A DNA stretch of 64,000 nucleotides from Liolophura sinensis (lineage: Eukaryota; Mollusca; Polyplacophora; Chitonida; Chitonidae): positions 19,849,501-19,913,500 of the forward strand of contig NC_088303.1 of the NCBI RefSeq assembly GCF_032854445.1, given 5' to 3'. The notes beneath the pieces were generated by a model. That model saw nothing but the letters and a program-made list of their open reading frames with translations. It did no database searches and was not told the origin of the DNA. Shown piece after piece: positions 9,501-63,230 of this stretch; positions within the stretch are counted from its first letter, which is position 1, and each line of letters begins with the position of its first letter. The position numbers were made by a program, and so were the translations under genes.

Positions 9501-12500
9501 GAATTCTTTTAGTTTTTCACATATTGAAATTCTGTTTAGAAAAATTACAGAAATTTACTAAATTTTTGCATATAAAATGGTCAGTTTTTTTTTGACAGTT
9601 CTGTGCTTTCATCTCTGAGAAATTATAACTATTTGTTCCTTATCAAAGGCTCTTTACATAAGTGCGAAGAAAACATTTTTTCTTACGGAAATGCATGGAA
9701 TTTTAAGACATTGTAATGGTCATTTTCTATTTGTTTTTAACTTAAGAATGATTTGACTAGTGGAGATTGTTGTGATTAACTAACTCAATCTGAATGTAAT
9801 CCACTCCTTCCCTGGAGCATTTCCCATTGATTCTGTTGTCTCCAATGCATACAATAGAGGTTAACAGCTTGGCAGATGTATGGAGATGAGCCACCAGTCA
9901 AAACCCTTGACTTCCATAACACATGTGCTCCTATTGGCTGAAGAGATGTCAAAACCTGTAGCTCATTTGTCAGCTGAATCGAAAGGAAGATGCCTGTAAC
10001 CGTCTCCCTCAGTGATAAGAACTTCAAAAGGGAGGTCCCAGCCTCTGGGAAACTGTCACACTCAACTGCCACTGGTGAATTCAGCTCTACAAACCTAGAA
10101 TCTTACTGTTTGCTTGGTGTGTCCAGTTCTGTACTACGAAATGTGGACATTTTATATACAACCTCTACATCACATGGAATTGGGATTATTGTGACTGTCA
10201 GTGGACGATTAACCATTTGAAAGCATTGCTTGTGTGATCTGTGAACATTTGTACGTCTTCCTTGGGATGAAGATTCTGATTTGCCCATCTGCAAACGTCA
10301 TTGTGTGATATCTGACTGCCCTGCACAAAACCAGACATCAGGTGATGGTCTTACTCTATAAAGCAGCATGGAAACTGCTTTTCAAGTACAAGTTCTCCAT
10401 TTGCAAGCCTGCACAGACTTGCAAAAGTTACAAGACTACGAAGACCAGTCACTATTGGTATTATCTGGAAATTTCCCTGAACAGTGATAACCGAAGATTT
10501 AAACATCGTTGTGTAAAACATGTGGCCAGCAAATGGCTGATTAACATTGTGTGGCCTCTTCATCAACATTGCCAGTATCAATCTGGAAGGAATCAAAGAG
10601 TAACGATGAATTCCACAGAGATTGGTACAGAAATCTTGGTACTGTTGAGGACGTAATGGAACTGTACTTTACTGTGTGTCAACTCAAACCTTTTGATTTG
10701 TGACAATCAGGCAGAGCTTCCCATGTATACCTTCTGTAGACACTATTAAGAAAATTCAGAGACACCAGTGCCTGTTGGGTCGCGCAGTGAGAGACATTCC
10801 ATTTGTCTTCAGTAAGCACATCTCTGTGCTATGTGATGTGGATAAACTGTTTGTATGGCTGTGTATGTTCCTGACGTATTTGTAAATGGATTGCTAAAAT
10901 CAGTGTCTTCTGAGGATACATGTTGTGGGACAGCCATGGTGATTCCTAAAGTGACAGTGTTTTCTGTGATAGTACTTTGTGACGATGCACACACTACATG
11001 TATGTGACTGTGGTGGTGATTTCGTGCATTGACAGTGCTTCTGATGATGCACACACCAGGTGCCAGTGGTGGCGATTCGTACAGTGAGTGTTTCCTGATA
11101 GTAAATACACCATGTGACCATGGTGGCGATTTCGTGCATTGACAGTGCTTCTGATGATGCACACACCACGTGCCAATGGTGGCGATTCGTACAGTGAGTG
11201 TTTCCTGATAGTAAATACGCTATGTGACCATGGTGGCGATTTCGTGCATTGACAGTGCTTCTGATGCACACACCACGTACCAGTGGTGGCGATTCGTACA
11301 ATGAGTGTTTCCTGATAGTAAATACGCTATGTGACCGTGGTGGCAATTCGTACAGCAACAGTGCTTCTGATGATGCACACACTGTGTGACAGTGGTGGTA
11401 ATTCATACAGTGACAGTGTTTCCTGATAATGCACATGCCATGCGACAGTCTTTGTGATTCATTCCGTGACCGTCCTGATGACATGACACAATATGTAACA
11501 GTGGTGATGATTCATACCGTGACAGTGCTTCCAATGATGTACACACTGTGCGACAGTGGTGGCAATTCGTACAGTGAGAGTGTTTCATGATAATGCACAT
11601 GCCATGTGACAGTCTTTGTGATTCATTCTGTGGCCGTCCTGATGATATGACACAGTAGGTAAGAGTGGTGGTGATTCATACCGTGACAGTGCTTCAGATG
11701 ATGTACACACTGTGTGACCGTGGTGGCGATTCGTACAGTGTGAGTGTTTCCTGATAATGCACATGCCATGTGAAGGTCTTTGTGATTCATACTGTGAAAT
11801 TCCTTCTGACATGACACGCTATGCGACAGTGGTGGCAATTCGTCTAGTAACAGTGTTTCCTAATAATACACAAGCTGTGTGACAGTGTTGGCGATACGTT
11901 TTAGGAGTTCTTCTTGGTATGCCCGCACTATGTGACAGTCTTGGTGATTCATACAGTGACAGTGTTTTCTGATGGCACGCGCTATGTGACAGTCATCATG
12001 ATTCTTACATTGACAGTAAGATGATGTGCTCACTGGATGACATTTGTGGTGTAGTTTGTTGTGTCTCATGTGACATACGTGCGCAGTGTTTTTCCAGTGA
12101 CATGGAACCCTTTAGATACAAACCCTGGAAACTGGAGAGGCTTGTGTACCAGTGATGGTATATGTGAGCATGTTAATAGTGATGGTGCTGTAGAGAGACT
12201 TGAATACTCATAAACAACATCCTTAAGGACAGTCTTGCATGTTCATTTCAAAGTCAAGACTGCCTTTCAATGTGAAACTCATTGTGAACAACATTTATGA
12301 CCTGAGTATTTCACTCTATGACTTGTGCCAGAGTGTGTACATTGCACTAAGAACATGAAGAAGCCTAACTCTGTCACTGAGGATCTGACCGTTGACCCTA
12401 ATGAGCCATGTGTAGGCCAACCTTAAGTCTGCCCTTGGAGATGAATTAGAAACGCACTGTTACCTGGGTTTCCAGCTCGCTAATCAACTGTGGTCAACGG

Positions 12501-25964: not shown

Positions 25965-28900
25965 CTGTAACAACGACAAAATATTACAAACCACTTTCTA
26001 AATACATTTACCTATGGGAAGGGCTTTCCACAATATGAAGTTAGATCACACTCTTGGCTCCATTATCATCTTTTCTTTATCATAAACGTATTCCACATGA
26101 TTCTGTAATGTTCCTGATCCCAAATTTTCTCCCTCCTACTCCTGATAATCATTTCTCTATCCTGACCTAGTCTCTTCTCTCTCCCATACTCCTGACCTAG
26201 TCTCTTCTCTCTCCTATACTCCTGACCTAGTCTCTTCTCTCTCCCATACTCCTGACCTAGTCTCTTCTCTCTCCCATACTCCTGACCCAGTCTCTTCTCT
26301 CTCCCATACTCCTGACCTAGTCTCTTCTCTCTCCCATACTCCTGACTTAGTCTCTTCTCTCTCCCATACTCGTGACACAATCATTTCTCTCCACATACTC
26401 CTGACACCATTTTTTCTCTCCCCCATACTCCTGATACAATTATTTCTCCCCCCCTTGCTCCTGACCAAATTTTTTCTGTCTCCCATACCCCTGAACTAAT
26501 CTTTCCTCTCTCATACTCCTGACTTAATCTTTTGACCTAACCTTTTTTCTCCCATACCCCTGACATCTTGCCTCTACCATACTCCTTACCTAATATTTCC
26601 CTCTCTCATACCTGTCCTAATCTTTTCTCTCTCCTACTCCTTATCTAACATTTTCTCTTTCCTACTCCTGATCTAATCTTTTCTCTCCCCTACTCCTCGC
26701 CCAATCTTTTCTCTATCCTACTCCTGACCTACTCTTTCCTCTCCATCATACTCCTGACCTAATCCTTCCTCTCTCTCCTACTCTGACCTAATCTTTTCTC
26801 TCACTCCTACTCCTGGTCCAGGAGCCTCCGTGGCTCAGTTGGTTAGCATGCTAGCGCAGCGTGATGACCCAGCAATCTCTCACCAATGCGGTCGCTGTGA
26901 GTTCAAGTCCAGGTCATGCATGCTCTCTCTCCGGCCGTACGTGGGAATGCCTGCCAGCAACCTGTGGATGGTCGTGGGTTTCCCCCGGGCTCAGCCCGGT
27001 TTCCACCTATTCTTGAGTAGGGCGTAAAACACCAATCAAATGAAATAAATAAATAAATACTCCTGGTCCAATATTTTCTCTCTCCTACTCCTGTTCTAAC
27101 CTTTCCTCTCTCAAATAATACCGACAAACTATGTTTCCTCTTTGACACACAAGTACTTGTGACCTCACCTTTTCTCAGTGTCAGCTGACTGTAGCATCAA
27201 CTCCTTCTCTTTCACCAATAGCCTCAAGTGTTTAATCTCTCTTTCATACTCGAGCCTTTCACTTTGAAACTTTTCTTCCTGTTCAGAAAACCTGAAATTC
27301 AAAAACATAATGAATTAAGGAAGAATTACTATTCAACTAACAACAGCCAAAAAGCACTGAAATGCTATGTGTAGTATAAATTTGACGCTAGTAAACCTTC
27401 TACAACTACTGTGACAAATTCACACCTTCATGTATGCCAATGAAATTCCCATTACCACAACAACCAGTGTCTGTGTCCATACATTCATTGCTTCTCACAC
27501 TCAAACCAGAACACCCACTGTACATACCTGGCAGCCACTGTGTTCAGTTTTGCGGCAGCCTTTACTTTATACGTCTGAAATACAGAGAAAAGCAGATTAT
27601 CAGGGTAGTGATCACCTATTACAAGTAATCCAGCTTCAAGTCAGAAAGTGCTCAAAGGTTAATGGTTCACTCTGGTTTCCACTCATCAACCTGACTGCTG
27701 TCGCATATAAAAGAAAAATTAATCAGCCTGGCCTAAAACACTTCATTGATCAATCTAGATGCAATGCTCTTTACCTATTTTCCTCTCGCCATAACTCGTC
27801 GTCATATGACTGAAAAATTGTTGAGTACGACGTTAAACCCCAAGCACTCACTCACTCTCGCCATAACACTGCCCACAATCATGTAAGCGAACTTTAATTG
27901 AGTACAGTGTAAACACCACGCAAATAAATAAATGTGGCTGGATTAATCCTCATCAAGTGAATACAAAACATAATATTCTGTATTCTGTTTAACGGTTTCA
28001 TTATTGTATGCATTCACAGAAGCTCACAGTTTCAGACTAATCTAAATTTAAACAAGTGTTCAGGCGAACACAACATATGCCCCAACAAATGCATTTGTTT
28101 GAAATGTATAAAAGAACACCAGTAGCATTTTGGTGAATATAAAACCTGAAGGGAATCTTCATAAGTGTTGATGATAGACTTGTGGTTACCATGACAACCG
28201 CGCAAGTGGGTATATGTGTCCACCAAAACTTTATGCCGAAAACTGTTGAAGTTACAGCCCAGACACCAAATCATATCTATTTACATAAATAAAGTATACA
28301 TAGGGAAATGGCAATCTGGTTACCATGACAACTGCAGAAATGGACAAATGTGAGTCATGACCCACGTATGAACCATGGTGCATGCACCAACCACTCACCT
28401 TGAGCTTTTCCTCCAGCTTGCCCACTGTGACATTCCCCTCTATTAGCTTGTTCATGGCTCTCCTGGTTTCATGTTCCTGATCTTTAGCCTACAAAGTATG
28501 TCAAAAAATAATTTAATAACTTAAATAATAAGTTAAAGTATATGTATGCATTATGAGCACTTTAATTTTATATCATATTGAACAATTTTTCAGTCATATG
28601 ATGACAAAGAGTCATCACATGTAGGTGTGTGTGTCCATATACTGTATCTTCCTGTGACAGGAGTCCATGATGCCAAACTGCCGCCACTGAAGCATCATCC
28701 CACAATAGAAAAAACAATTTTGACACGTGAAACGTTGCAGTCTACTCTCCTTTCAACAACACTCGTTACAACACCATACTTGACTTCCAACACAAAACAC
28801 AAGGGCAGAAACATATAGCTACATGTATGTTAACCACCTGAATATTTAACGACACCAACAATGCTTTATCGACAAACAAAGCCAAATCCCACTGACTTGT

Positions 28901-31900
28901 GCTCACCATGCCAAATGACTGCGCGGGGTTTCAGCTGAGGCTACCTCAAAAATCTGTTTCCTAGAGAAGGATTATGAATGCACTGGTTTCTAGATTGGGT
29001 TGTCAAAAAACACCGGCTAACACTTACCACTTTGGCATAGGTGTCCCTCTCAAAGGCATTTCTCTCAGCCTAAAACACAAAACCACAGTTCCAGTACCCA
29101 AAGAAACTTTTGCAACATCAAGCTTCAACCTTTTCAACCTCTAAAGTACATTTTTAGAGGGATTTAAGCATGCAATGATTATCAAAATGATAATGTCGCT
29201 CAGAATGATGTGTTTGTGTCACTAATAATGCAAGCTTCATAAAACTGTGCAAATTATTTTTCTGCAACCTATAGTTCTCTCAAAATCTTTTAAAATATTG
29301 GTAGCAGAGACAGTTGAAGAATTAGGGTAGCTATAATTACTGGCTCATCAAGGACATAATGTTCATAATTACACTTGACAGAAGTACGTAAAACAAACTG
29401 ACAGCATCAGACGTTAATCACATGTCAGGAAGAACTTACCAGTTTAATCAGTGCAGCTAGGTGATCATGGGCAGACAGCTCTTTGTTCTCAGACAACTCT
29501 AATGCTTTGTTCATCAACTGGATTTTATTCTGCACTTTCCTGATAAATAAAGACAACAATGTCACATTAGCAAGGCCTCCCAAATAAATGTGTAGTCTCT
29601 ATCTTACTGATAAAAAAAGTTCCCGCTGGCATATGCAGTTAAGACGCTCCTATGGCCATGCCCAGCTGTCGCTCATTCAGCTGCAGGCCATGCCCAGCTG
29701 TCGCTCATTCAGCTGCAGGCCATGTACAGCTGTCACTCATTCAGCTGCAGGCCATGTCCAGCTATCACTCATCCAGCTGCAGGCCATGTCCAGCTGTCGC
29801 TCATTCAGCTGCAGGCCATGTCCAGCTGTCGCTCATTCAGCTGCAGGCCATGTCCAGCTGTCGCTCATTCAGCTGCAGGTCATGTCCAGCTGTCACTCAT
29901 TCAGCTGCAGGCCATGTCCAGCTGTCGCTCATTCAGCTGCAGCTTAAAGCCAGGAGGACTGTCAGGTGCCTGTGCTAGACATCAAAAAAAATAGCCATGT
30001 CTATTTGACAGGAGAAACTTGGATGATCAGGAAAATGACTACAAAAACACAACACAGGTGCCAAATTTATTATACTCAAAATTTAATTCACTTATTTTTA
30101 CTTAGTTTCATGGGCAAAATTAAGAAACTTATCACATGTAAGGCCAGCAACAAACCAATGTCCCGACACACTGCCACTATGGGGCATTCACTCTCATAAG
30201 GGACCATCCCCATAAATCGTTTGCATTCGTTTATTTTTTCTTTTCTCCAAAAAGCCGAATTCGACCTACACCCTTCCTTTGCCCATTCAGTTAACATGAT
30301 TTAAACAAATCAAACGAATCCCTGTATCGGTCAGCCACTGCATAGTGATACGTTTAAACACCATTGTGTAAACCGACGATCGGTAAAGAGGTTTTCAACG
30401 CTAGTCTACACAAGAAACAAACCCAAAGAATCAACAGCAAAAGTGGTTCAACTCATGAAACTTACATATTTTCACGATAGTCTACCAACACCCAAAGTAT
30501 AGGCCTAAATATATGATCGGGCATATCCGTCAGAAACTCATACTGGCCTAGGCTACACTCGTACAAGTAGGCCCACAAGTGAGCCAAGTCACACCAGGTC
30601 CTGCAGGTTTTGTACCAGCCGATGTTGAGTGTTGACAACTATATAGCGCGATGGATACTTGTCCAAATCTGTGCTTGAGATCTAATAAAGAATATTTAAA
30701 TCATCTAGTATGAACTGTATGTTATATCCAGCTTTGGGACTCGGGGTGTGACCGAGGCCGTCATGCAGGTGCTGGGGGTTCCTGCTGATCAAGCCCTGCT
30801 TCCTGTTAATTGAAAGTCTTACTTGTCATACATAACTAGGTGTCAGCATCTACTCACCTTGAATCTTGGTGAAACAAAATGTGCATATTTCTTTATTTCA
30901 CAGCAGGCAATCCTTCCTTCACAAACATAAGTAGGCCTAGCAGCGGGCTTACAGATGAATATGGAAGGCCCCTTCAAATCCCCACTAGATACATACAAGC
31001 TGTCAACTCCAGCTTTTATTATTCCCAAATAATATTTTAATCATGCTTTATGTTTTGTGTTTGTTATCTGCTAATAATTTCTGAAGTAAATACATGTACC
31101 AGTTGTCGTTCAGTCTGATGTAATCCATATACACTGTACAGTTTGTTTCTCTATTGTTCAACTGAAAAGTCTGTCAAGAGTTCAGTTCAATCCAAGTCTG
31201 AGTTGAGGCTTTCAAAGGATGGGAGAAGAGGTGATGTACTTAATGGAAATGAAATTTACTCCAAGTCATACTGCATCATTAGTATCTTCGAGTATACCTT
31301 TAGGATAAGTAGTTTATATATATAATATATATAGTTTGGTATTTAATTTAACGCCAACGTGTCATGTAGTTTCATTTCATTTCATTTCATTGGTGTTTTA
31401 CGCCTTACTCAAGCATATTTCACTCATACGACAGCGGCCAGCATTATGGTGGGTGGAAACCGGGCACCGCCTGGGGGAAACCCACGACCATCCGCAGGCT
31501 GCTGACAAACCTTCCCATGTACGGCCGGAGAGAAAGACAGCATGAGCTGGACTGGAACTCACAGCGACCGCATTGGTGAGAGACTCCTGGGTCATAACGC
31601 TGTGCTAGCGCGCTAACCAACTGAGCCACAGAGGCTGTCGTTGTTGTAGTCGAAATTCCCTGCTGTGCTAGCGGGACTACTTTCGCCAGGCCTGCTCCCT
31701 CTTCCGCTGTTTCCAATAATCGGCTCCAAGAAAAAAAAAAACAAATGAACCAATCCGACACTCATCGTCTGAGTGTTCGGTCGTTTCATTCGTTTTACCG
31801 AACCCGAGGCAAACGATTTATGGGGACAGTCCCTAAGACAATACTTTCAAAATCTGAACAGAGCTTTGTCAGTACATTTCATCACAGCACAAATCAGGTT

Positions 31901-34900
31901 TTCTTTTTTCACTTACTTCAGGGCCTTCTGTGAGGACTTCACCTCTGCTTCTAACTCATGATTTTTGGCTTTCAAATCAGTCAACTCATAAGCCAGATTT
32001 TTGCGTTCTACTTGAAGTGCCTGGAAACAGAAATCATTAACATTCATACACAGAAAGAAAATGTACAACTTCTGGAAAAGACCACAATTTGTAAAGATAT
32101 GCATCAAAATCTGACAACATGAACTAAATTTAGAACACTTTTAACTTAATACACACCTTTTTCTTCATAAATAGATATTTAAAAACTACAATGAAATGAT
32201 CAAGTTGTTAGAGCACCTGCCTTGAAAGTCAAAAGCCTGAGGTCAATGCTGAGTTTTTTGAAGTCTTTAAAAATTTGTAATCTACGCACTTCATCACTTC
32301 ATCATATTTACATTGTTAATAACAGATACTTATCCCTTACCTGGTATTTGGTGCTGAGATTTTCTATTTCCTTCTGGTGAATTTCCTTTGACTCTGTTAA
32401 TGTTCTGAAATATGACATACTCGTACTTTAGAGCACTGAAGTTTCAATGTATAAAATATACATATATGGGCAACAAAACTTTCAAATGAACAAAAACTAA
32501 ACGGGCACAAATTTTTGGTCTCAAATCAGACAATTTAGAGCAGTTATTTTGTAGTAATCAAGGTGTGATAGAGAGACAAATAAATTAATATCCCTCACTC
32601 TTGTAGAAGTGTGAAACAACAAACTCTCGTGGAAGTGTGGGACAACAAATTCTCATGGGAGGGTGGGACAACAAACTCTCATGGGAGGGTGGGATAACAA
32701 ACTCTCATGGGAGGGTGGGATAACAAACTCTCATGGGAGGGTGGGATAACAAATTCTCATGGGAGGGTGGGACAACAAACTCTCATGGGAGGGTGGGATA
32801 ACAAACTCTCATGGGAGGGTGGGATAACAAAATCTCATGGGAGGGTGGGATAACAAACTCTCATGGGAGGGTGGGATAACAAACTCTCATGGGAGGGTGG
32901 GATAACAAACTCTCATGGGAGGGTGGGACAACAAACTCTCATGGGAGGGTGGGACAACAAACTCTCATGGGAGGGTGGGACCTCAAACTCTCATGGGAGG
33001 GTGGGATAACAAACTCTCAAGGGAGGGTGGGATAACAAACTCTCACGGGAGGGTGGGATAACAAACTCTCATGAGAGGGTGGGATAACAAACTCTAGGGA
33101 AAGTCTGCGATATTAACAAACTCTTGTAGAAGAGTGGCATAACACTCTCTTGTGGAAGTGTGGACTAACACTCTTGTGGAAGTGTGGAATAACATACTCT
33201 TGAGAAAGTGTGGGAAAACAAACATTTGAGGAAGAGTGGGATAAAACACGCTCGTGGAAGTGTGAGAAAACAAACCCTTCTGCAAGTGTGGGATAACAAA
33301 CTCTTCTGCAAGTGTGGGATAACAAATTCTAGTGGAACCATGGAATAACAAATTCTCATGGAAATGTGGGATAATAAACTCTCCTGGAAGAGTGGATAAC
33401 ATTCTTTTGTGGACATGTGGGATAACAAACTCTCCTGGAAATATGAATAGCCACACAATGTAAGAACTGCTAGCCCTCACCTCTTTATCTCTGTGACCGT
33501 ATGAATGGTCCTATCTTCTGTGTGCACCAAACTCTCCTGGAAATATGAATAGCCACACACTGTAAGAACTGCTAGCCCTCACCTCTTTATCTCTGTGACC
33601 GTATGAACGGTCCTATCTTCTGTGTGCACCAAGCTTTCATCATACTTCTCCTTCAGTTGTTTCAGAGACTTTCTCAGCTGCTCAATCTCTCGCTCACTGT
33701 CTGCCTTCTCAGAGGAAATACTCACCACACGCCGTGACAGCTTGGCCACTGGATGGACAGGTAAATACACAGTTTGGGATAAACAATGCTTTAAGCTTGG
33801 GCGAAGAACTAGGTATAGGTTTACAGAAACTTTAGCAGTTCTAAAGACTAGGGTGACCCTCTTCTTAGTCAATCAGCTCCTTCTCAGATGTTTACTGTGA
33901 ATTTTACCACGTGACACCACCCTCAAGTTTAAAATTCCAGAAACGTTGAATGAATACTTAATCAGGAGTTTTGGTAAATTTTTTCACACTTGTATGGACA
34001 TGTAAATGTAGGGATGTGTGTAGTGTGTACAAATTATAGGCAATTTTTTATCATATTTGTTGCACAGCATTTTACATATTGCTAGTGTGATGAATTACAT
34101 AAGTAAATAGACCTGCATTATATTTACTTATTTATTTGCTTGGAAGTTGAGCTCTGGGGAAACCCAGGACCATTTGTCAGTTGACTGGCATTATAAGAAA
34201 AGAGAACGCCTGACAGTGGTCACTTACTTTCCTGTGAATGTGCCTTGTGTAGATCTTTGAACTTGTTTTGCTGGACATTAATTTGCTCCATAAGAATCTG
34301 GTTCTCCTCCAGTATAAGCCTGGCCTGCTCCTCAAGCTTGGACCTACAGCAAACAGACATGTGTAAATGACAGGTAGTGCAAGAAGAATAACAGTTGTGG
34401 TTCTGTTTAGCATACAAAAGAGAAACATTCAATTTCTACAAGAAATTATTGCATATACACATGGCATGGGAATGTCTGGACCAAAATCAAAGCAGGGGCC
34501 TCCGTGGCTCAGTCGGTTAGCGCGCTAGCGCAGCGTAGTGACCCAGAAGCCTCTCACCAATGCGGTCGCTGTGAGTTCAAGACCAGCTCATGCTGGCTTC
34601 CTCTCCGGCCGTACGTGGGAAGGTCTGCCAGCAACCTGCGGATGGTCGTGGGTTTCCGCCGGGCTCTGCCCGGTTTCCACCCACCATAATGCTGGCCGCC
34701 GTCGTATAAGTGAAATATTCTTGAGTACGGCGTAAAACACCAATCAAAAAAAAAAAAAAAAAAAAAAAAATCAAAGCATGCCCTAATTATAGGACAGTGT
34801 TCTAAACACGTGGTTCTGAACATCCACAAGTCATGGCAATGTCTGGACCAAAATCAAAGCATGCCTTAATCATAGGACAGTGTTCTAAACACTTGGTTCT

Positions 34901-37900
34901 GAACATCCACAAGTCATGGGAATGTCTGGACCAAAATCAAAGCATGCCTTAATTATAGGACAGTGTTCTGAACACCTGGTCCTGCACACACACATGGCAT
35001 GGCAATGTCTGGACCAAAATCAAAGCATGCCTTAATCATAGGACAGTGTTCTGAACACTTGGTTCTGAACATCCACAAGTCATGGCAATGTCTGGACCAA
35101 AATCAAAGCATGCCTTAATCATAGGACAGTGTTCTGAACACTTGGTTCTGAACATCCACAAGTCATGGGAATGTCTGGACCAAAATCAAAGCATGCCTTA
35201 ATTATAGGACAGTGTTCTGAACACCTGGCTCTGAACATCCACAGGTCATGGGAATGTCTGAACCAAAATCAAAGCATGCCTTAATTATAGGACAGTGTTC
35301 TGAACACCTAGTCCTGCACACACACATTGCATGGCACTGTCTTGGCCCAAATCAAAGCATGCCTTAATTATAGGACAGTGTTCTGAACACCTGGCTCTGA
35401 ACATCCACAGGTCATGGGAATGTCTGGACCAAAATCAAAGCATGCCTTAATTATAGGACAGTGTTCTGAACACCTAGTCCTGCACACACACATTGCATGG
35501 CAATGTCTTGGCCAAAATCAAAGCATGCCTTAATCATAGGACAGTGTTCTGAACACCTGGTCCTGCACACACACATGGCATGGCAATGTCTGGGCCAAAA
35601 TCAAAGCATGCCTTAATCATAGGACAGTGTTCTGAACACTTGGTTCTGAACATCCACAAGTCATGAGAATGTCTGGACCAAAATCAAAGCATGCCCTAAT
35701 TATAGGACAGTGTTCTGAACACCTGGTCCTGCACACACACATGGCATGGCAATGTCTGGGCCAAAATCAAAGCATGCCTTAATCATAGGACAGTGTTCTG
35801 AACACTTGGTTCTGAACATCCACAAGTCATGGGAATGTCTGGACCAAAATCAAAGCATGCCTTAATTATAGGACAGTGTTCTGAACACCTAGTCCTGCAC
35901 ACACACATTGCATGGCACTGTCTTGGCCAAAATCAAAGCATGCCTTAATTATAGGACAGTGTTCTGAACACCTGGCTCTGAACATCGACAGGTCATGGGA
36001 ATGTCTGGACCAAAATCAAAGCATGCCTTAATCATAGGACAGTGTTCTGAACACCTGGTCCTGCACACACACATGGCATGGCAATGTCTGGACCAAAATC
36101 AAAGCATGCCTTAATCATAGGACAGTGTTCTGAACACTTGGTCCTGCACACACACATGGCATGGCAATGTCTGGACCAAAATCAAAGCATGCCTTAATCA
36201 TAGGACAGTGTTCTGAACACTTGGTTCTGAACATCCACAAGTCATGGGAATGTCTGGACCAAAATCAAAGCATGCCTTAATTATAGGACAGTGTTCTGAA
36301 CACCTGGTCCTGCACACTCATATGGCATGGCAATGTCTGGGCCAAAATCAAAGCATGCCTTATTCATAGGACAGTGTTCTAAACACTTGGTTCTGAACAT
36401 CCACAGGTCATGGGAATGTCTGGACCAAAATCAAAGCATGCCTTAATTATAGGACAGTGTTCTGAACACCTGGTCCTGCACACACACATGGCATGGCACT
36501 GTCTGGGCCAAAATCAAAGCATGCCTTAATCATAGGACAGTGTTCTAAACACTTGGTTCTGAACATCCACAGGTCATGGGAATGTCTGGACCAAAATCAA
36601 AGCATGCCCTAATTATAGGACAGTGTTCTGAACACCTGGTCCTGCACACACACATGGCATGGCAATGTCTGGGCCAAAATCAAAGCATGCCTTAATCGTA
36701 GGACAGTGTTCTGAACACTTGGTTCTGAAAATGCACAAGTCATGGGAATGTCTGGACCAAAATCAAAGCATGCCTTAATTATAGGACTTAATTTGTCTGG
36801 CTGGTGTTTCACTCTGTACTCAAGAGTATTTCACTTCTACGATGAGAGCTAGCATTATGGTGGAAGACAACCGGGCAGAGCCTGGGGGAAACGCATGACC
36901 ATCCGCAGGTTGCTGTTAAAATTTTCAGCATATAGACATCTGGCGGTGCCTTGGTACTACAGCATTCCTCCTCCCAGCTCCCATTACGAGACTCACCAGT
37001 CCTGGTCGCCAGAACCTCCCTTCTGACTCCTGGTTACCAGCACCTCATTCTCCTTCACCACCTCCTCTGTCCTCATCTTCAATGACTCCATGATCTCCTG
37101 CAGCACAGGTCACCAGTTTTTGTAAGGGTTTAACAGGAACAACAAAGCTGTCATTGGATCACCTGTAGCTTTACAAGAGCAAGTGACATGTAAGATTTAT
37201 TTACTTTACTGGTGTTTTACACCGTACTCAAGAAATATTTCACCTAGACAACAGTCTACAACATTATGGTGGGGTGAAACCCGGCAGAGTCCTTGGGAAA
37301 CCCACATCGTGGGTTGACAGCAGACCCTCCCACACATGACCAGAGAGGAAGTCAGCATGAGCTGGACTTGAACTCACAGCCACCCCATGTATAATTATGT
37401 CCACAAAGCCAGAAGCAATCCTGCAATAGCATTAAGATTAAATGATGACAACATAGTGATATGGATCCACCTCATACTGATGAATAGCCTGGTCCTTCTT
37501 ACTCAGCTCATCATCATAGGCCAGAAACAAGGGGGCCAGGTACTTGGTGTTAATCTGGAATCAAACAAATGTACAGACTGTATTGAGGATCAACTTGCTG
37601 CACAAGTACGGAATTAGCACCAGTATTATGGAAATTTGTCATCTTCCCATTCACAAGAATTCAGTGCAGTCTCGGTGTAAAGCATTAAAACCTGTCTGAT
37701 AAAACAGAAGAATTATGACACAGGTCAAAACAGTCGTCACATTCTTGAAATTCACAGAGCATGTAATCTATTTATTAATTTGACTGGTGTTTCTGGCTTT
37801 AGATAGAAACGTGGTACACAGCTGAAAGTTTCACATAACCTAACCTAGGGCAGACCTTTTAGCGTGCTTCAAGTACAATATAAATCAACTTTATGCAAGA

Positions 37901-40900
37901 CACAATACAGATCACTTATAACCTACAACAGACACAATACAGATCACGTATAACCTACAATCTCTGGATGTTTGGTTACTTTTACAACACATTTAACATG
38001 ACAGTCACTGTTGGATTACGGTATCACATACTGTCTGACCGTACTATGCAAAATCATGTAGATTTCATGATGTTTAGAAGATAATAATTCACTTACCAGC
38101 CATGACGGAATTGGGCCTTTCGAGGGCAATCCTACAATCTCCTGAGCCTGTTAAGTAGATGATCATATACCTGTACACTGAGTAACAACACCGGTACATA
38201 CACAACAACCACCTGTACACTGAGTAACAACATCAGTACATACACAACAACTACCTGTGCATTGAGTAACAACACCGGTAAATACACAACAAACACATGT
38301 ACACTGAGTAACAACATCGGTACACAGACAACAACTACCTGTGCATTGAGTAACAACATTGGTACATACACAACAACTACCTGTGCATTGAGTAACAACA
38401 CCGGTACATGCACAACAAACACATGTACACTGAGTAACAACATCGGTACACAGACAACAACTACCTGTGCATTGAGTAACAACATTGGTACATACACAAC
38501 AACTACCTGTGCATTGAGTAACAACACCGGTACATACACAACAACTACCTGTACACTGAGTAACAACACCGGTACATACACAACAACTACCTGTACACTG
38601 AGTAACAACACCGGTACATACACAACAACTACCTGTACACTGAGTAACAACACCGGTACATACACAACAACTACCTGTGCATTGAGTAACAACACCGGTA
38701 CATACACAACAACCACCTGTACACTGAGTAACAACATCAGTACATACACAACAACTACCTGTGCACTGAGTAACAACACCAGTACATACACAACAACTAC
38801 CTGTGCATTGAGTAACAACACCGGTACATACACAACAACTACCTGTACACTGAGTAACAACGCTGGTACATACACAACAACTACCTGTACATTGAGTAAC
38901 AACACCGGTACATACACAATAACCACATGTATATTTTAGAAAACTAAAGTTTCAGGAAATTTTTGTCATTTTAACAGGAATAACAAAGGTCCCCTGTTAT
39001 TACTATTATCGCGCATGCATGTAAACATACATGTACGTGTGACTACTATGGAGGCCATTGCAGTATGTCCCCACAGAATTCAGGTAAACACACAAAATGC
39101 ACTAATTGATATCAGCCCCAGTAAAACAGCATTCATAGGAATTTCCCGCTCGTGGTCCAGACTGGGACAACAGCTTGTACGAGGTAAACTCAATGAATAT
39201 AATCCTTACTCCACAATTAAATATTCCTTAATGATTCAAACATTACCAACTGACAATGGATTGTTCAATCTGCAAATGGCAACAATGACAGCTATTAAGT
39301 CTTTGCTAGACCATGCACGACTCTGTAGCTTGATTCTGTAATTTTACTATTAGCTGCAGTAACAGTGTTAGCACAGTACTTTTGCCCTGCCTCAAATTAT
39401 TTCATGCAAACAAATCTTGATACGCATCCAGTCCTGACGCAGTCTGAAGCACACGGTCATGACTGCCCTTGATATTAAAATATTGAACAAAAACATCCCC
39501 CCCCACTTATAAATTTAGATGCCCTCTCTGCTGTCATTCTAGTATTGACATTCCAAATTATCAGCCCTTGTACCCTAACAGAACTTCCGCGATCGCAATT
39601 TCCTAATGGTAGCAGATGAACCATGAAAATTTACCATCTTTGTGGGCTAGGGTCTAGATTTAGGACTGATGTCAGGTGTTAGTCAGATTACCCCATTCTT
39701 TAACCTTTCCACACATGAAAGAGCAACTTTCAGAGCAATTTATGCATATTTTCATGCTGACTTCGAAGACAAAACTACATTGGTTGGATAGGCCAATTTC
39801 AAAGCTTCACAAAAAGTATAACTTAGTCAGTCTGCGCAAAATAATACCTACAGAATATGACTGAAAAAACACATCACAAACAGTCCTGCTAATTCACCTC
39901 ACTGCCATACTGCACTGGACGATACTTGGCCTGGTACTTGCTCAGCTCTATGTTCAGACGATGCACTGTGCTCTTCAGGATGTCACAATCTTCCTTCAGC
40001 TCGTGTAACTGTTTCTTTAACACTGAGGAGCCTACCCTGTCTGACAGGTAGAAAACAGAACAAAAGTCCGTTGAAAACATGTGGATATTTATTATCTTGT
40101 GATATAAAAAAATATAAGCACATTTGTATGTAAATTGTCAGTGCCTTTATGTGTATGAAACCCGATCACCTAATGTATGATATTCACCTTCCCAATGTCA
40201 TGTTAGTTATTTACTTGATCCGTATTTCATATAATGCTCAAGGATGACGGTAAGGTTCATTGGTAAAACCGAACTGGGAAACATCATTCAGAGTACTTTC
40301 CCCATGAATCACCCACTCCATTAAAGAGCTAATCTAGCATCAAAACATGTATGTCCTAAAAGCAAAGTTAAATAATAAGGATCGAAATAGTCAGAATTGC
40401 TTTATTAAATTGTAAAAAAAAAAACATTGTATTAAAGCTGTTGTTATTAGTTTGAGAGGATAATACAATACTACAATTTTGCTTGCAATGATGTTGGGCA
40501 AGAACACATGACATCACCCATAACTGACATATTGCCACGAATTGACGTCATTCCCAATAAAACTGCCTTATATTTGACGTCATATCTGCCCGATTTATTG
40601 TCACATAATGAATATTATCACATCACGTCAGGAAAAGTTTATGGAAACTGCTGAGAACTTTGTTTTTAAGGACTTCATTTATGGGGGTTAAATAATGTTA
40701 TTCACCCCAAATTTATTTGAACCGTGTTTCTAGATATATTCCATAGGGAGTCCTTCAAATCATTTTAATGTTTCTGCCTGGTTTCTCTTTGGACTTGAGT
40801 AGCACTTTCATACCTTCGCCTTTCCTCAGGGCAGAGTTCTCAGAGCGTAAATCTTCGCTGTATCTCTGCAGGTCAATAATCTGGACCTCCAGTCTTTTCA

Positions 40901-43900
40901 ACACTTCTTGTTGTCTTTCGATGGAAATATCTTGATACACCACAAAATACAAAAGAATTCAACATCATGAACATGTTTATATAAATTCACATGCAATTTT
41001 GTTTAGTCTTTTCATTTGATTGGTGTTTTATGAAGCACTCAATAATTTTTCACTTCAGCGAGAGCAGTCAGGTATATGGGTGGAGGAAACAGGAGTAAAC
41101 CGCAAAGTCAAAGTAACGACTGGCCGAGAAAAGATCTGAAATGAAGCAGTATCCGGTATAGTTTCAATCACACAAGCCACAACACAAACTAATGACAACA
41201 ACAGTTTTTTCTCATTAATTAAGGTCTGATGTAGAATACATGTATAACATGTAGATGCACTTTTCAATTTTTATATTTTGAAACAAAATTTCCTTTCAAT
41301 TATTGGTGACAGATTTTGTTGGAGTAAACTAGCCACACCAGCACCAAAAAACCCCATCTTACTCAGTACTGGCATAAACACCTGTAAGCCACAGTTCCAG
41401 CACAGAAGGTATAGTCTACCATTACTTTATTTACAAGGTCGTAGTCAACAGGTAATGCTTTCAGTACTGAATCCACTAATTTCCTGCCTTAGCTGTCATA
41501 CAAAGAACCTTATTTCTACTGACAAAACAAAAATCATTTTACAAATGTCTTTTACCAGCTATGTTTAATACTAAGGCTTTACCATGATCCCTGAGTTTTC
41601 GCAATGATTCCTTGAGTTCTGCACTGTTCTTATCCAGGTCATTCTTTGCCAGCTGAAACACAATCATGATTTAAATATCAGACAAATCCACAACAAAAAT
41701 AGTGCACTTGGGATTCATTACAAACCCCAAAATCTGTAAATGATACAGAAGCCCTCTCTGGATATTTGTCACTGAATGTGGTGACTACCTGTATGTGGCG
41801 TCATATTTTATATTACAGCAGACATTAATGCTTAAAAACTTGAGGTGATCAGTCTCACTCTCTATAGTCATTACCTCACCACAAACCCCTTTTCCAGTAG
41901 GGTTTTCCATAAATACATTTTATTTGTAAAAAGTTTACCATAAGTTATCATCATTTGCCAGAAATAGTTATAAAAAATTCTAATAAAAATTTGTGAGCAG
42001 GGGTTTTATATTCATTTCACATAACTGGAAATAGGACCTGCTACAGGGGTTTTATATTCACTTCACAAAGGTTAAAATAGGACCTGCCACATGAGTAATG
42101 TACAGGACATACATTATCTTCCGAGTCGATGGCCGGGAGGTCCCTGACAGCTCTCATGGCATCGCGGACCTCGCGTGCCGTGTTGGGTACAGTCCTGCGC
42201 AGCGTCTGTGGGGTAGTGGCCAGGTCCTCTTGGTGATAACGCTTCATGGCTAGGGACTCCTCAGGGTCAGAGTCAACGTGCTGCTCCGCAGCCGCCGCTA
42301 TTGCTAACCCGCTGTGACGGTGATGTTTCTGAAATGTTAAAATCATGACCTTAAACTGTGGATAAAATGTCATTTGATCTGATACATCTAACATATCACA
42401 GACAGAATTATATTTTATTTATTTATTTATTGTATTGGTATTTAAAACTGTGCTCCTGCACGTTTAACCTTCAGGATGGCATTCAGGTTCATGGGTGGAG
42501 GAAAACTAGAGAGCCAGGGAGAACCAGTGACCTTTGCCAGATATACAATTACTGTATTTCACCTAGAGTTTGATATAAAAATGCACTTTAGGAAGCACAT
42601 CAAGGTCATTTAGATGTGAACACTTAGGTGTCAATTGAATAATGCTAAAAAATATACCGGTGAAATACAGTATACTTAATATTCATGTAACATATTATTC
42701 AAATATCTTTTAATATTTCCAATAACCATTTTAGCGCGTTCCCTTGTACTGTCACACATTTGCCACAAATAAGGTGACAGACAGTGATGTATCCAGAGAT
42801 TTTTTAGGTGCACTTTTTTTGACAAACATTTTCATTCTACTTTGTCTTCTATTCTTTTGAGGCTCCAAAACCCCTGATACAAATCTTCACAAAGCAAAAA
42901 ATAGAAATCAAGCCCATAGGTATTAATGTGCAAGTCCTTTACCTTGCCAGTCATGTTGACATTCATCATAAACTTTCAGACAATGTATGGCTCGTGTTAT
43001 ACTAAGAATGTTTACAGCAGATTTGACACTGATGAAACAAAACAGATCAGATGAACCCAAACCTCAGTCAAATGAAGAGAACAAAATGACTGATCGCATG
43101 TTGGTATAATCATTACTTAAACATGCTCTTACCCATCACTGACTGTTGTATACATGTACGTCACTCCACACTATCCTCTAACCCTCTCACAACCGAGAAC
43201 ACACCTACTACTGAAGACAGTCAGCCTTCCAGCATTCTCTACCTGGTATACCATTACTGGTGTGCACAAGCTGTGAACTTTTACAGGCAGTACATTAAAC
43301 ATACATAAGAGTGTATGTCTGGGCACAAGCTTAATCCTAAGCCCTATACAGGTATTCTATTGTTACTCCAATCCAGGTGTTAAGTCTTTACTTTCCAATA
43401 AAGTCACACAGAAGTTAGCCACAAACTGACTTTGTTCTTTGGCAAATTAACTGTGTTCCACATGTCTATATCACATTCAATAATACATATACATGCAGTC
43501 ACCCATTTGACTGAGAAACTAAATTAAAAACACAACAAACAACAAACATTAACAGCTACAAAATGCAGAATTAGTGTATACTTTAAAGCCACCATTTATG
43601 ATTGCAATTCATATGAATAGCAAAGTGGTGTATGATTTTTTTCAAAATCTGATTTCACTCATAAGCGGCGCTCACATGAAATTTTTATCCACGAACCCCA
43701 TGGTTCATTCACATTTGTGCTAATGGTTTGCGATGCACCCATGACTCTCATCTCTACAAAGACAAGAAATTGGCTGTGAACTTTTAATTCTGGGTAACAA
43801 CGCCCAAAGCAGAATTCCTGTATTTTAAGAGCCTTCCCACAAGTATGTCTGCAGAACAAAAATACCTCCCAAAACAAACTTGGCAAAGTCAGGTGAAATA

Positions 43901-46900
43901 CAATCGTCGACATCTTTGCTGTCTTCTCATTTTGACCTCACTCACAGACATATACGAGTGGCAATTCCAATAAATCTCTTGTGCCCTATACACAACAGTC
44001 TCTGTGAAAATCCTTGTTTCTGAATCCGTGATTTGTTCGTGCGCACTGGTTCTCTGTTCTCTAACTGGTCATACTCAAGTAAGGTTAGAAGTCAATTTCA
44101 CAACATGTTTGATGTACCAGAGACATGGCCAAGAGGAGTGCCGGTAGAACTGGGGCCTGTTCTAGCTTGTCAAGCCCCTGCTGTATCTCAGGTGTACCAA
44201 TAGAACCTTACACATAATACACACCTTCTGTGAGATGAGCTTATTAGGGACAGCACAGAGTCTGCCACTGGGTTTTGTTTTAAAACCCATCAAGCCCGTA
44301 CCGTATCTCAGGTGTACCAATAGAACCTTACACATAATACACACCTTCTGTGAGATGAGCTTATTAGGGACAGTATAGACTCCTGCTCCAAGGTCCTGTC
44401 CTAACCCATCAAGCCCCTGCTGTATCTCAGGTGTACCAACAGAACCTTACACATAATACACACCTTCTGTGAGATGACCTTGTTAGGGATAGCATACACT
44501 CCTGCTCCAAGATCCTGTCCTAACCCATCAAGCCCCTGCTGTATCTCAGGTGTACCAATAGAACCTTACACATAATACACACCTTCTGTGAGATGAACTT
44601 GTTAGGGACAGCATAGACTCCTGCTCCAAGGTCCTGTCCTAACCCATCAAGCCCCTGCTGTATCTCAGGTGTACCAATAGAACCTTACACATAATACACA
44701 CCTTCTGCGAGATGAGCTTAATGGGGTAGCATAGAGTCCTGCTCCAAGGTCCTGTCCTAACCCATCAAGCCCCTGCTGTATCTCAGGTGTACCAATAGAA
44801 CCTTACACATAATACACACCTTCTGTGAGATGAGCTTATTAGGGACAGCATAGACTCCTGCTCCAAGGTCCTGTCCTAACCCATCAAGCCCCTGCTGTAT
44901 CTCAGGTGTACCAATAGAACCTTACACATAATACACACCTTCTGTGAGATGAGCGTTATGGGGTAGCATAGAGTCCTGCTCCAAGGTCCTGTCCTAACCC
45001 GTCAAGCCCCTGCTGTATCTCAGGTGTACCAATAGAACCTTACACATAATACACAACTTCTGCGAGATGAGCTTAATGGGGTAGCATAGTCCTGCTCTAA
45101 GGTCCTGTCCTAACCCATCAAGCCCCTGCTGTATCTCAGGTGTACCAACAGAACCTTACACATAATACACACCTTCTGTGAGATGACCTTGTTAGGGACA
45201 GCATAGAGTGCTGCCACTGGGTCCTGCTGTAACCCGTCCAGCTCCTGTTTAATCTCAGATGGCTCCAGAATGTGATACCTATGGCCTGGAACACCAAGCA
45301 AATCCATCAAGTTTGAATGCAATCTATAGACATATGTAAATTATACAAATGTTTGGTGTGGAACATCACACGTAAGAATTCACGTTTATCCACTGGCTTA
45401 TTTTACCTAGGAAGCCAAATACATCTCGAGGGAAACTATTACATCTGGCCTAGTATCAAATCGTGATAATTACTCAAGAATATTATTGGATCGTAAAAAA
45501 TACAGGATATTTAAATCCTTCACAAAGTAACAAGATTTAAGAGAATAATCAGCTGCACATATACGAACAGTCTCAGATCAATATGTTCAAGCATTCAAAT
45601 TCACCTTGGGACCTCTGTGGCCCAGTTGGTTAGCACGCTAGCACAGCGTAATGACCCAGGAGCCTCTCACCAATGCGGTCTCCGTGAGTTCAAGTCCAGC
45701 TCATGTTGGCTTCCTCTCTGGCCGTGCGTGGGAAGGTCTGGCAGCAACCTGCGGATGGTTGTCGGTTTCCCACAGGCTTGGCCTGGTTTCCTCCCACCAT
45801 AATGCCGGCCGCCGTTGAATAAGTGAAATATTCTTGAGTACGGTGTAAAACACCAATCAGATAAATAAATAAATAAATAAATAAATCAATTTCACCTTCT
45901 CCTAGTTTTTCTTTTTTCACATTTTTCTGTATAACAATGGACACAATAGTTATCACAAGCCATTTCTAGGTGAAGCACTTAATACCTTGTGACTGTTCCT
46001 CTGCTTCATTAATGTCCACTGGTGTGTTGCGTGGGGACCCCAGACGCTCCCTCTCTGCTTGTCGCCGTCTCTCCAATGTCCCAAAATCCACAGTGGCATA
46101 TCTAAACATGAAAACCAGAAAATCAATGAGGTGAAAGTATACAGTTTCATACCCTGAAATTCTACAATATTTTTGTCCTTGAATAATATATAACATAATT
46201 ATAATAATATAATGATGCTTGCTTCTTGCACGTGTATCCTCTCCTGAGTATTCACAAACTAAAGCCTAAATAAAAAAACTTTAATAAAATGATTTGGATT
46301 AAACAGCATGCCCCCAAAAAACACCTCATGATCGCAAACATAAAATAAATGCATTTAAACAAAATTTGCCATAAACTTTCCCAATCAGGCATTTTCACTA
46401 CGGCATTAAAGAGTTTGACTAACTATATATAATTATGATTATTTAATGCTGTACACAATAATTTTTCACTTACATGACTGCTTAGGCCAACCCTAAGGAA
46501 ACATTCTTAGTTATGCAAAAACGTTATGCAAACAATGTGAGATCAAGTGATAATTCCCCCACTTTTCAATTTCATACCAAACTATTGTAATATTTCTATA
46601 GAGTAAAAGTTTCCCTTACCCTGGGTCATTCATATGTTCATAATCGTACAGGCTACTGTCTGGGTCACTGAAGGCATCATCAATAACAGGCGGGGCAGTG
46701 TGTGACAGTCGACCAATGGCAGAAGTGTTCAGCATTTCCGACACCAGACCAGTGTTGCGTGGGACAGGTTTCGTCACTGGGGGAGGTGTACTTGGTACGG
46801 CCAAGAAAGCCATTGGTGGCAAGAGGGCAGCTCCTATTGTGGACTGTACAAAAACACAAAACAACAATATCAGCAAAAATGGTTAACAAAACTATATTCA

Positions 46901-61800: not shown

Positions 61801-63230
61801 CTTTACTTATTCAGTCCTTCATTTTACTTGATTGATGTATGATGTTTTTGCACTAGAGAATTTTTCGTTTGTATGACAATTGCCAGGTTTTTTGGAAAAT
61901 GCCATCTGTTACTTACCTCTGCCACCTGAAGATTAGTGTAGTTGTCTCTGGACAAAATACTGAAGGCCTTCCAGCTGGGAGTGGCTGTGGACTCCAGCGT
62001 GACAGCCATGTCAAACACGTTACGATTGGGATCCACTTTGGTGAAGGCCACGAGCGCTTCCATGGCAGCCAAGGTGTCCTATTGACCAGGAATAAAGGAT
62101 TGAAAAAATCAGCAAGTACAACAACTGCTTCCACAGTGAGAAAGATTCTTGAGGAAGATTTAGCACGTAGGAAATTATTACAAAGATGTAACATATACAC
62201 AGACACTCTGATCCATGTCAGATTTGTTACAATAAGTAGAGTGCCTAGAGAAACCACATTCCTTTATACAGTTCCTGACTATTAAACCTCCTGATACATG
62301 TATATGACTATAACCTGAGACATGATTGGTGAACTGCCTCAATCAACTGCACCAATCATAACACATCTGCTGTCTGGCTTCGGGATTTATTTCCTCTCTT
62401 AAATGTCATATTGGTTGAAGGCAAGTGTGTGACATGGTTTTACCTGTGTGTGACATGTTTATACCTGTGTGTGACATGTTTATACCTGCTGTGTGACATG
62501 TTTATACCTGCTGTGTGTGACATGGGTTTACCTGCGTGATGTATTTACACCAGTGTGACATGTTTACCTGTGTGTGACATGTTTATACCTGTGTGTGACA
62601 TGGTTTTACCTGTGTGACATGTTTATACCTGTGTGACATGTTTACCTGTGTGTGACATGTGTTTATACCAGTGTGACATGTTTACCTGTGTGTGACATGT
62701 TTATACCTGTGTGTGACATGGGTTTACCTGTGTGTGACATGGGTTTACCTGCATGATGTGTTTATACCAGTGTGACATGTTTACCTGTGTGTGACATGTT
62801 TACCTGTGTGTGACATGTTTATACCTGTGTGTGACATGGTTTTACCTGTGTGTGACATGTTTATACCTGCTGCGTGTGACATGTTTATACTTGCTGCGTG
62901 ACATGGTTTTACTTGTGTGACATGTTTATACCTGTGTGTGACATGGTTTTACCTGTGTGTGACATGTTTATACCTGCATGTAACATGGTTTTACCTGTGT
63001 GGAGACAAAACCACCATTGTAGTTCCTCATGTTGTTCAGCCACCTCATGATGGAATCCCGCTCATATTTCAGGCCGTCATGGCTGATATGGGCCATGAGA
63101 GCGTATGCTGTTGTGTGCACAGCATAAGCGTCATTTTCCAGCTCCAGACGAGGGTCCAGATAACGAATAGCATTCTGGATGTTGGACGGGTTGGGAGGTA
63201 CTACCTGGTCTGCCCAGTACAACTCCTCAG
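58619..63230 (-). CDS. CD109-like thioester-containing protein (A2M family), C-terminal seven exons
   Basis: A2M-family proteins (alpha-2-macroglobulin, C3, TEPs, CD109) are secreted or GPI-anchored and bind proteases or microbes through a thioester domain. Exons in order: 63230-62995, 62078-61917, 61554-61492, 60576-60443, 60009-59835, 59504-59399, 58803-58619 (TGA); about 352 residues; all phases join. Seen: the end of the thioester domain (DAYAVHTTAYALMAH, then RWLNNMRNYNGGFVSTQ|DTLAAMEALVAF), the following MG/CUB-like strands, the receptor-binding domain (SGLAVMEVDIPTGFVVMND, ending RVYDYYEPG), then a short Cys-containing tail with a final hydrophobic segment. VxDYYEP followed by Cys residues and a hydrophobic end is the CD109 pattern rather than that of C3 or A2M. 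The thioester GCGEQ site and bait region lie beyond the window's right edge, so activity cannot be judged. Confidence 0.92.
59399..60009 (-). CDS. CD109-like receptor-binding-domain exons (60009-59835 and 59504-59399)
   Basis: The first, joined in phase 2 to TGTGCC AG|, encodes RWTYLEKSLRSGLAVMEVD, IPTGFVVMNDTLRSYVQART, and FYYRKVVFYFDY. The second encodes LDQSKTCVRFRADRWYPAAN, ATIQHQMRVYDYYEP. The order (GLAVMEV, TGF, C-x-F, VYDYYEP) matches the receptor-binding beta-sandwich of the A2M family, with AN-AT an N-glycosylation sequon. Confidence 0.92.
60213..60345 (-). mobile_element. SINE 3' half, reverse orientation
   Basis: TCTGATAGGTGTTTTACAAC, TCAAGAATATTTCACTTATA, AGAATTATGGTGGGAGGAAC, CCATCTGCAGGTAGCTGGCA. 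It lies in a CD109-like intron. Confidence 0.82.
60955..61172 (-). mobile_element. SINE, diverged at the 3' end, reverse orientation
   Basis: TGGTGGGAGGGAACAGTGCA, GAGCCCGGGGGAAACCCAAG, GAGAAAGCCAGCATGAGGAG, GCATGCTAACCACTAGGCCC. The segment normally next to the tail is missing. Confidence 0.82.
62425..62994. repeat. 21-bp tandem array starting at a splice donor, about 27 units
   Basis: On the minus strand units read GTAAAACCATGTTACATGCAG or GTATAAACATGTCACACACAG, each starting GTA and ending CAG. The first unit begins exactly at the exon-intron boundary (62994), so its GTAAAA is the donor itself. The array fills the first 570 bp of the intron. Unit length varies slightly (17-23). Confidence 0.92.
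62995..63230 (-). CDS. CD109-like exon: end of the thioester domain
   Basis: Entered in phase 1 after TTGTTTTCAG; encodes EELYWADQVVPPNPSNIQN, YLDPRLELENDAYAVHTTAY and NNMRNYNGGFVSTQ. The TTAYAL and GGFxSTQ motifs are hallmarks of the alpha-alpha-toroid thioester domain. The donor CACACAG|GTAAAA is the first unit of the 21-bp tandem array that follows. Confidence 0.93.

Follow-up and report, generated by a model that had tools for sequence, protein, structure and literature searches.

In the 64,000-nt stretch of Liolophura sinensis DNA analyzed here (hereafter the window), the end of a coding exon in a minus-strand gene is repeated, together with its 5' splice site, eight times and in part a ninth downstream of the genuine exon end. 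What are these copies, and could the donors they carry have a role? The host gene, which we provisionally take, from the vertebrate protein, to be CEP89, encodes a protein that gave nothing above a cut-off against Pfam and no significant match against PDB. Exons e2-e11 of the gene model, spliced together by way of the donor at 45173, form a single open frame, and the exon end is for this reason real within the model; e17-e21 are likewise open and end in their own stop. Joining e12-e15 after e11 as modelled was rejected, as it yields 11 stops and points to a missing small exon or a wrong border there. Because no first coding exon could be identified for the gene model, the label "exon 4" for the repeated exon is plausible only.

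The array was recovered by Tandem Repeats Finder with a period of 119, 8.8 copies, 92% matches and a score of 1720, and by an ungapped repeat search as nine copies at spacings of 116-120. Its unit joins the terminal 85 nt of the 113-nt exon to the 34 intron nucleotides that follow, and the exon end is itself the first unit (Table 1). The last exon-like base lies at 45173 in the genuine exon and at 45057, 44939, 44820, 44702, 44583, 44464, 44345, and 44225 in copies u1-u8, which gives spacings of 116, 118, 119, 118, 119, 119, 119, and 120. Nine minus-strand sites in the array read AAG followed by G or T and then TGTGTATT. GT is intact in seven of the eight copied donors, all seven being GTGTGT; in u1, the copy nearest the exon, TT takes its place. 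An earlier note on this DNA had described an amplified exon 4, with about eight copies each followed by AAG/GTGTGT, lying inside the next intron. Its derivation of the array from the exon end and 5' splice site is borne out by the alignment, as are the eight downstream copies, but only 85 of the 113 exon nucleotides were copied, along with 34 nt of intron, the donor of u1 is lost, and the array overlaps the exon instead of lying wholly within the intron. The coding end given there, VYAVPNKLISQK, is mistaken, the genuine exon ending in LYAVPNKVISQK.

Table 1. Positions of the CEP89 array and of other boundary-spanning arrays (window coordinates, except for the sampled loci, designated L; slash, exon-intron border).
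Feature	Position	Strand	Evidence or remarks
Genuine exon (e4 of model); its last 85 nt form the array's first unit	45173..45285	-	Acceptor TTCCAG/GCCATAGG, donor AAG/GTGTGT
119-bp tandem array, eight copies past the genuine exon end	44170..45214	-	Repeat searches and alignment
u1 donor to just before u2 donor; u1 is the nearest decoy, TTGTGT	44941..45057	-	Alignment
Last copied donor (u8), GTGTGT; exon-like CCCAGTGGCAG block kept, absent from u1-u7	44225..44225	-	Alignment
Decayed partial ninth copy, approximate; starts TGAGATACAGCAGG, then diverges	44107..44191	-	Alignment; ungapped search copy from 44128, 72%
TAG 20 codons past the skipped 45173 donor (…ISQK VCIMCKVLLVHLRYSRGLMG, stop)	45110..45112	-	Sequence
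Second case, CEP89: 102-bp unit x2.0, 98% matches; exon end …TVTEIK and donor GTGAGG	33426..33632	-	Genuine donor follows 33583; copied donor follows 33481
Third case, neighboring macroglobulin-type gene: 21-bp unit x28 with CACACAG/GTAAAA	62425..63001	-	Genuine donor after 62995 (…GGFVSTQ)
L023, donor-side, 66 bp x8			
L031, donor-side, 32 bp x7.5			7 of 8 donors intact
L036, donor-side, one diverged second copy			77%
L057, donor-side, 58 bp x2.2			
L085, donor-side, 99 bp x8.3			Donors AAG/GT(A or G)AGT
L048, acceptor-side, 66 bp x22	L048 91-1536		

The array is real. Tandem arrays are sometimes misassembled, but here the copies differ mutually, the array of about 1 kb is short beside the HiFi reads (mean 8,347 bp in the published assembly report), and arrays of this form recur independently at other places in the genome; an assembly artefact is thus extremely improbable. 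In the one assembly searched, the array DNA has a single matching place.

Do the copies encode anything? A nascent repeat-domain expansion of the protein had been proposed, and the exon-like part is indeed still recognisable in the copies. However, seven of the eight spacings are not multiples of three, and not every copy continues the exon as an open frame: the exon frame runs unbroken up to the donor in u3, u5, u6, and u7, and in u1 with three bases missing, but u2, u4, and u8 break it. Moreover, the exon read straight through runs into the TAG within the first copy. With three of eight copies frame-broken and a stop 20 codons into the read-through, a growing repeat domain has practically no chance of being the explanation. 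Among the four in-frame 85-nt copies (six pairs; about 19 synonymous and 65 non-synonymous sites per pair) there are 10 synonymous and 11 non-synonymous differences, which stem from only about seven changes; on these few changes, the synonymous share (10 of 21 pairwise differences) does not favor pure neutrality. Between the exon and the in-frame copies the counts are 7-9 synonymous and 9-10 non-synonymous, as expected with one side constrained. Taken as a set and judged from their letters, the copies nonetheless appear clearly free of coding constraint, which was the best supported of the suggestions first made for this locus.

A second possibility is that introns or exons are being gained, the copies acting as 75-nt mini-exons that add QGLDGLGQDLGAGVYAVPNKLISQK segments between 44-nt introns running from GTGTGT to GATACAG. 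The 44-nt interval is as first described, and the 75 nt are in frame and open in the 119-nt copies u3, u5, u6, and u7; only in 119-nt copies would removal of the 44-nt stretch join in-frame 75-nt pieces. Intron gain from repeats of this kind was proposed by authors working on lancelets. Against it, u2, u4, and u8 break the frame, u1 has no donor, and GATACAG is not preceded by a pyrimidine-rich tract. The mini-intron reading is therefore geometrically possible for some copies and unsupported, and we consider intron or exon gain very unlikely here. Intron gain through tandem genomic duplication of an AGGT-containing exon is reported in two further papers (PMC4974935, PMC3443670); a proto-splice site is copied there as in the chiton array, whose likeness to that process is one of geometry alone.

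Could the copied donors instead be functional? As a decoy array, they would bind U1 snRNP and shift some transcripts to stop-containing forms, so that copy number would tune the output of the gene. Several features are consistent with this: GT persists in seven of eight copies, a quiet block surrounds the donor, the stop is always met 20 codons into the read-through, and the one GT lost is precisely that of the nearest and most competitive decoy (one in eight by chance). The quietest stretch of the unit spans about 55 columns around the donor, with a ratio of 7.6 and none of 5000 permutations reaching it when the exon and u1-u8 are compared, and with p 0.013 for u1-u7 only; for four control arrays from the window the same test yielded p 0.61, 0.013, 0.89, and 0.32. 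However, a window centered on the donor (-4 to +8) is no quieter than the rest of the unit in five arrays (circular-shift ranks 31/119, 22/66, 55/99, 2/32, and 9/20; combined p 0.21). Special conservation of the copied donors, hinted at by the best-window result, was accordingly rejected as unproved, and selection on them is not detectable. Similar arrays are also found in unrelated genes, about as often as chance overlap would place them there. The decoy donors of the earlier note thus survive as sequence, their positions being no quieter than others in the unit, and a functional decoy array seems unlikely.

The divergence among units gives some indication of their history. Copies u1-u7 are mutually 91-99% alike and u8 is 84-89% like them; u8 and the partial ninth copy share an exon-like CCCAGT…GGCA block. 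The array is thus presumably old, with its middle re-amplified, and turnover in the middle with decay at one edge is the usual pattern. The exon and u6 differ in 18 of the leading 61 columns (43/61 identical) but agree throughout the final 58, a contrast with p 1.4e-6 under uniform divergence, although a uniform rate ignores differing constraint along the unit. In this alignment the exon end and donor appear plainly homogenized with a u6-like copy, and exchange or gene conversion would be the likely route.

The locus is probably best described as a minisatellite that overlaps an exon end, is tolerated, and is homogenized with its intronic copies. It would have grown from the coding exon/intron junction by tandem duplication and unequal exchange. 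The first donor would be the one used in splicing, giving the 113-nt exon, and the downstream copies would leave with the intron. Were a copied donor used, the message would gain a stop 20 codons further along and would likely be degraded, and for this reason the copies would be tolerated rather than useful. With many tandem arrays in the genome, any that overlapped an exon edge would necessarily copy a splice site.

Two further donor-side cases lie in the window (Table 1). The exon fragment of the macroglobulin-type gene matches TED_complement (Pfam, E 1.6e-10). A second copied donor in this gene, 21 nt past the genuine one (62974-62995, minus strand), is in frame and open and adds VKPCYMQ; it could therefore be a harmless alternative donor. 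The second CEP89 case adjoins a 26-bp array (x31.6, 32618-33438), which has GAGAGTTTG in common with the 102-bp unit and with the exon (GAAAGCTTG); the 26-bp array may possibly have seeded the 102-bp duplication. The window is rich in minisatellites. A 42-bp array (x18, 38168-38931) stops some 20 nt short of the acceptor belonging to exon 38097-38147, a 46-bp repeat (x2, 41998-42091) begins about 20 nt past the donor at 42113, and more long minisatellites with units of 30, 32, 83, and about 109 bp lie at 26160-26815, 29654-29942, 34767-36787, and 10996-12017.

How common are such overlaps in the genome? Exons were sampled by their matches to Myosin_head (81), DHC_N2 (86), and UCH (57), and the 30, 25, and 25 best, respectively, were taken as loci, which makes the best 80 of 224, some of them sharing a gene. 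Exon ends were judged by reading frame and splice consensus, and the sample was read by eye except for short repeats beside L028, L033, L074, and L080, and for an array that falls within the match at L045. Five donor-side cases and one acceptor-side case were found among these 80 (Table 1), L085 being assigned by visual inspection, since its HMM match starts within the array. At L015, L025, and L029, arrays lie near the donor and not over it. As a separate observation on this assembly, COX1 is matched seven times along contig C99 (108,685 bases), at intervals of about 15.5 kb; these are tandem copies of mitochondrial DNA and probably arose in assembly. The order of the mitochondrial genes is mollusc-like. 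A search for the GFP family, as a test for cephalochordate origin, gave 0 matches, and its control gave none either.

Of the 240,000 bases beside the exon matches, 21,581 (9.0%) fall in arrays, as do, at a stricter setting, 5.3% of the first 100 bases after matches; chance placement would therefore cover about 4-7 of 80 donors. The five donor-side cases in the best 80 of 224 loci are therefore roughly what chance overlap would give. Preferential seeding at splice sites was rejected, since array cover does not climb toward exon ends: on the donor side it is 5.3% (0-100), 6.2% (100-200), and 6.9-9.5% further out, and on the acceptor side 3.7%, 5.7%, and then 8.2-13.2% moving outward. Nor is a donor-over-acceptor bias significant (5:1 in the sample, p 0.22; 7:1 once the other two cases of the window are added, p 0.07).

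The two kinds of copied site may have fared differently. At L048, AG survives in 6 of the 21 acceptor copies that lie upstream (five GAG, one TAG), the other 15 being AT, and CAG occurs in the used acceptor alone. Intact decoys number 20 of 21 among donors (CEP89, L023, L085) against these 6 of 21, but the Fisher value of 1.4e-5 comes from an unfair test, as copies within an array are non-independent, a single acceptor array is involved, and L031 and the 21-bp array were left out. The counts fit the idea that extra downstream donors would be harmless and extra upstream acceptors would not, with one acceptor array behind it.

To our knowledge, this structure is known in print only from lancelets, with a looser form in human duplicated genes. 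The first such "mirage" was reportedly described in Adh3 in about 2002. In the lancelet papers, mirages occur in Adh3, the globins BflGb6 and BflGb9, TnC, and PGBD5, and are reported to leave regular splicing undisturbed (PMC3087553, PMC3902484). Mirages and the chiton array have in common a minisatellite-like tandem duplication of an intron/exon boundary, splice signals in the copies, and a homogenized middle with a diverged edge. The CEP89 unit spans the exon-intron boundary, its array sits in the intron beside a genuine boundary that is itself one unit, and its interior (u1-u7) is homogenized and its edge copy (u8) diverged. Mirage units measure 10-160 bp and may lie on the donor or acceptor side, the chiton unit being 119 bp and donor-side; the mirage host is a cephalochordate, whereas here it is a mollusc, known from the sequence of one assembly. 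Human duplicated genes carry internal tandem repeats at exon-intron boundaries, which are reported to give rise to alternative splicing through novel introns (PMC2812944). Both are tandem repeats at such boundaries, but the human repeats were found by repeat-number differences between recent paralogues and have transcript support, whereas the chiton locus is single-copy and read from its DNA. Among the matches listed in a literature search, whose scope took in few subscription papers, titles and openings mention no boundary-spanning repeats of this kind in a mollusc.

What is new, then, is a mirage-like structure outside lancelets, in a mollusc, and in several unrelated genes of one genome; the function of the CEP89 array is ordinary as far as can be seen. 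We suggest, tentatively and as somewhat less than an even prospect, that exon ends within boundary arrays may evolve in concert with their intronic copies, the intron serving as a reservoir that would rewrite the last codons and 5' splice site of a live exon at roughly one in sixteen donors (a small sample), with decoy donors tolerated and decoy acceptors decaying (one array, 6 of 21 keeping AG). Arrays that carry near-identical donors at a fixed spacing offer natural experiments on the spliceosome's choice among equal 5' splice sites and on the alteration of exon ends by exchange with intron DNA.
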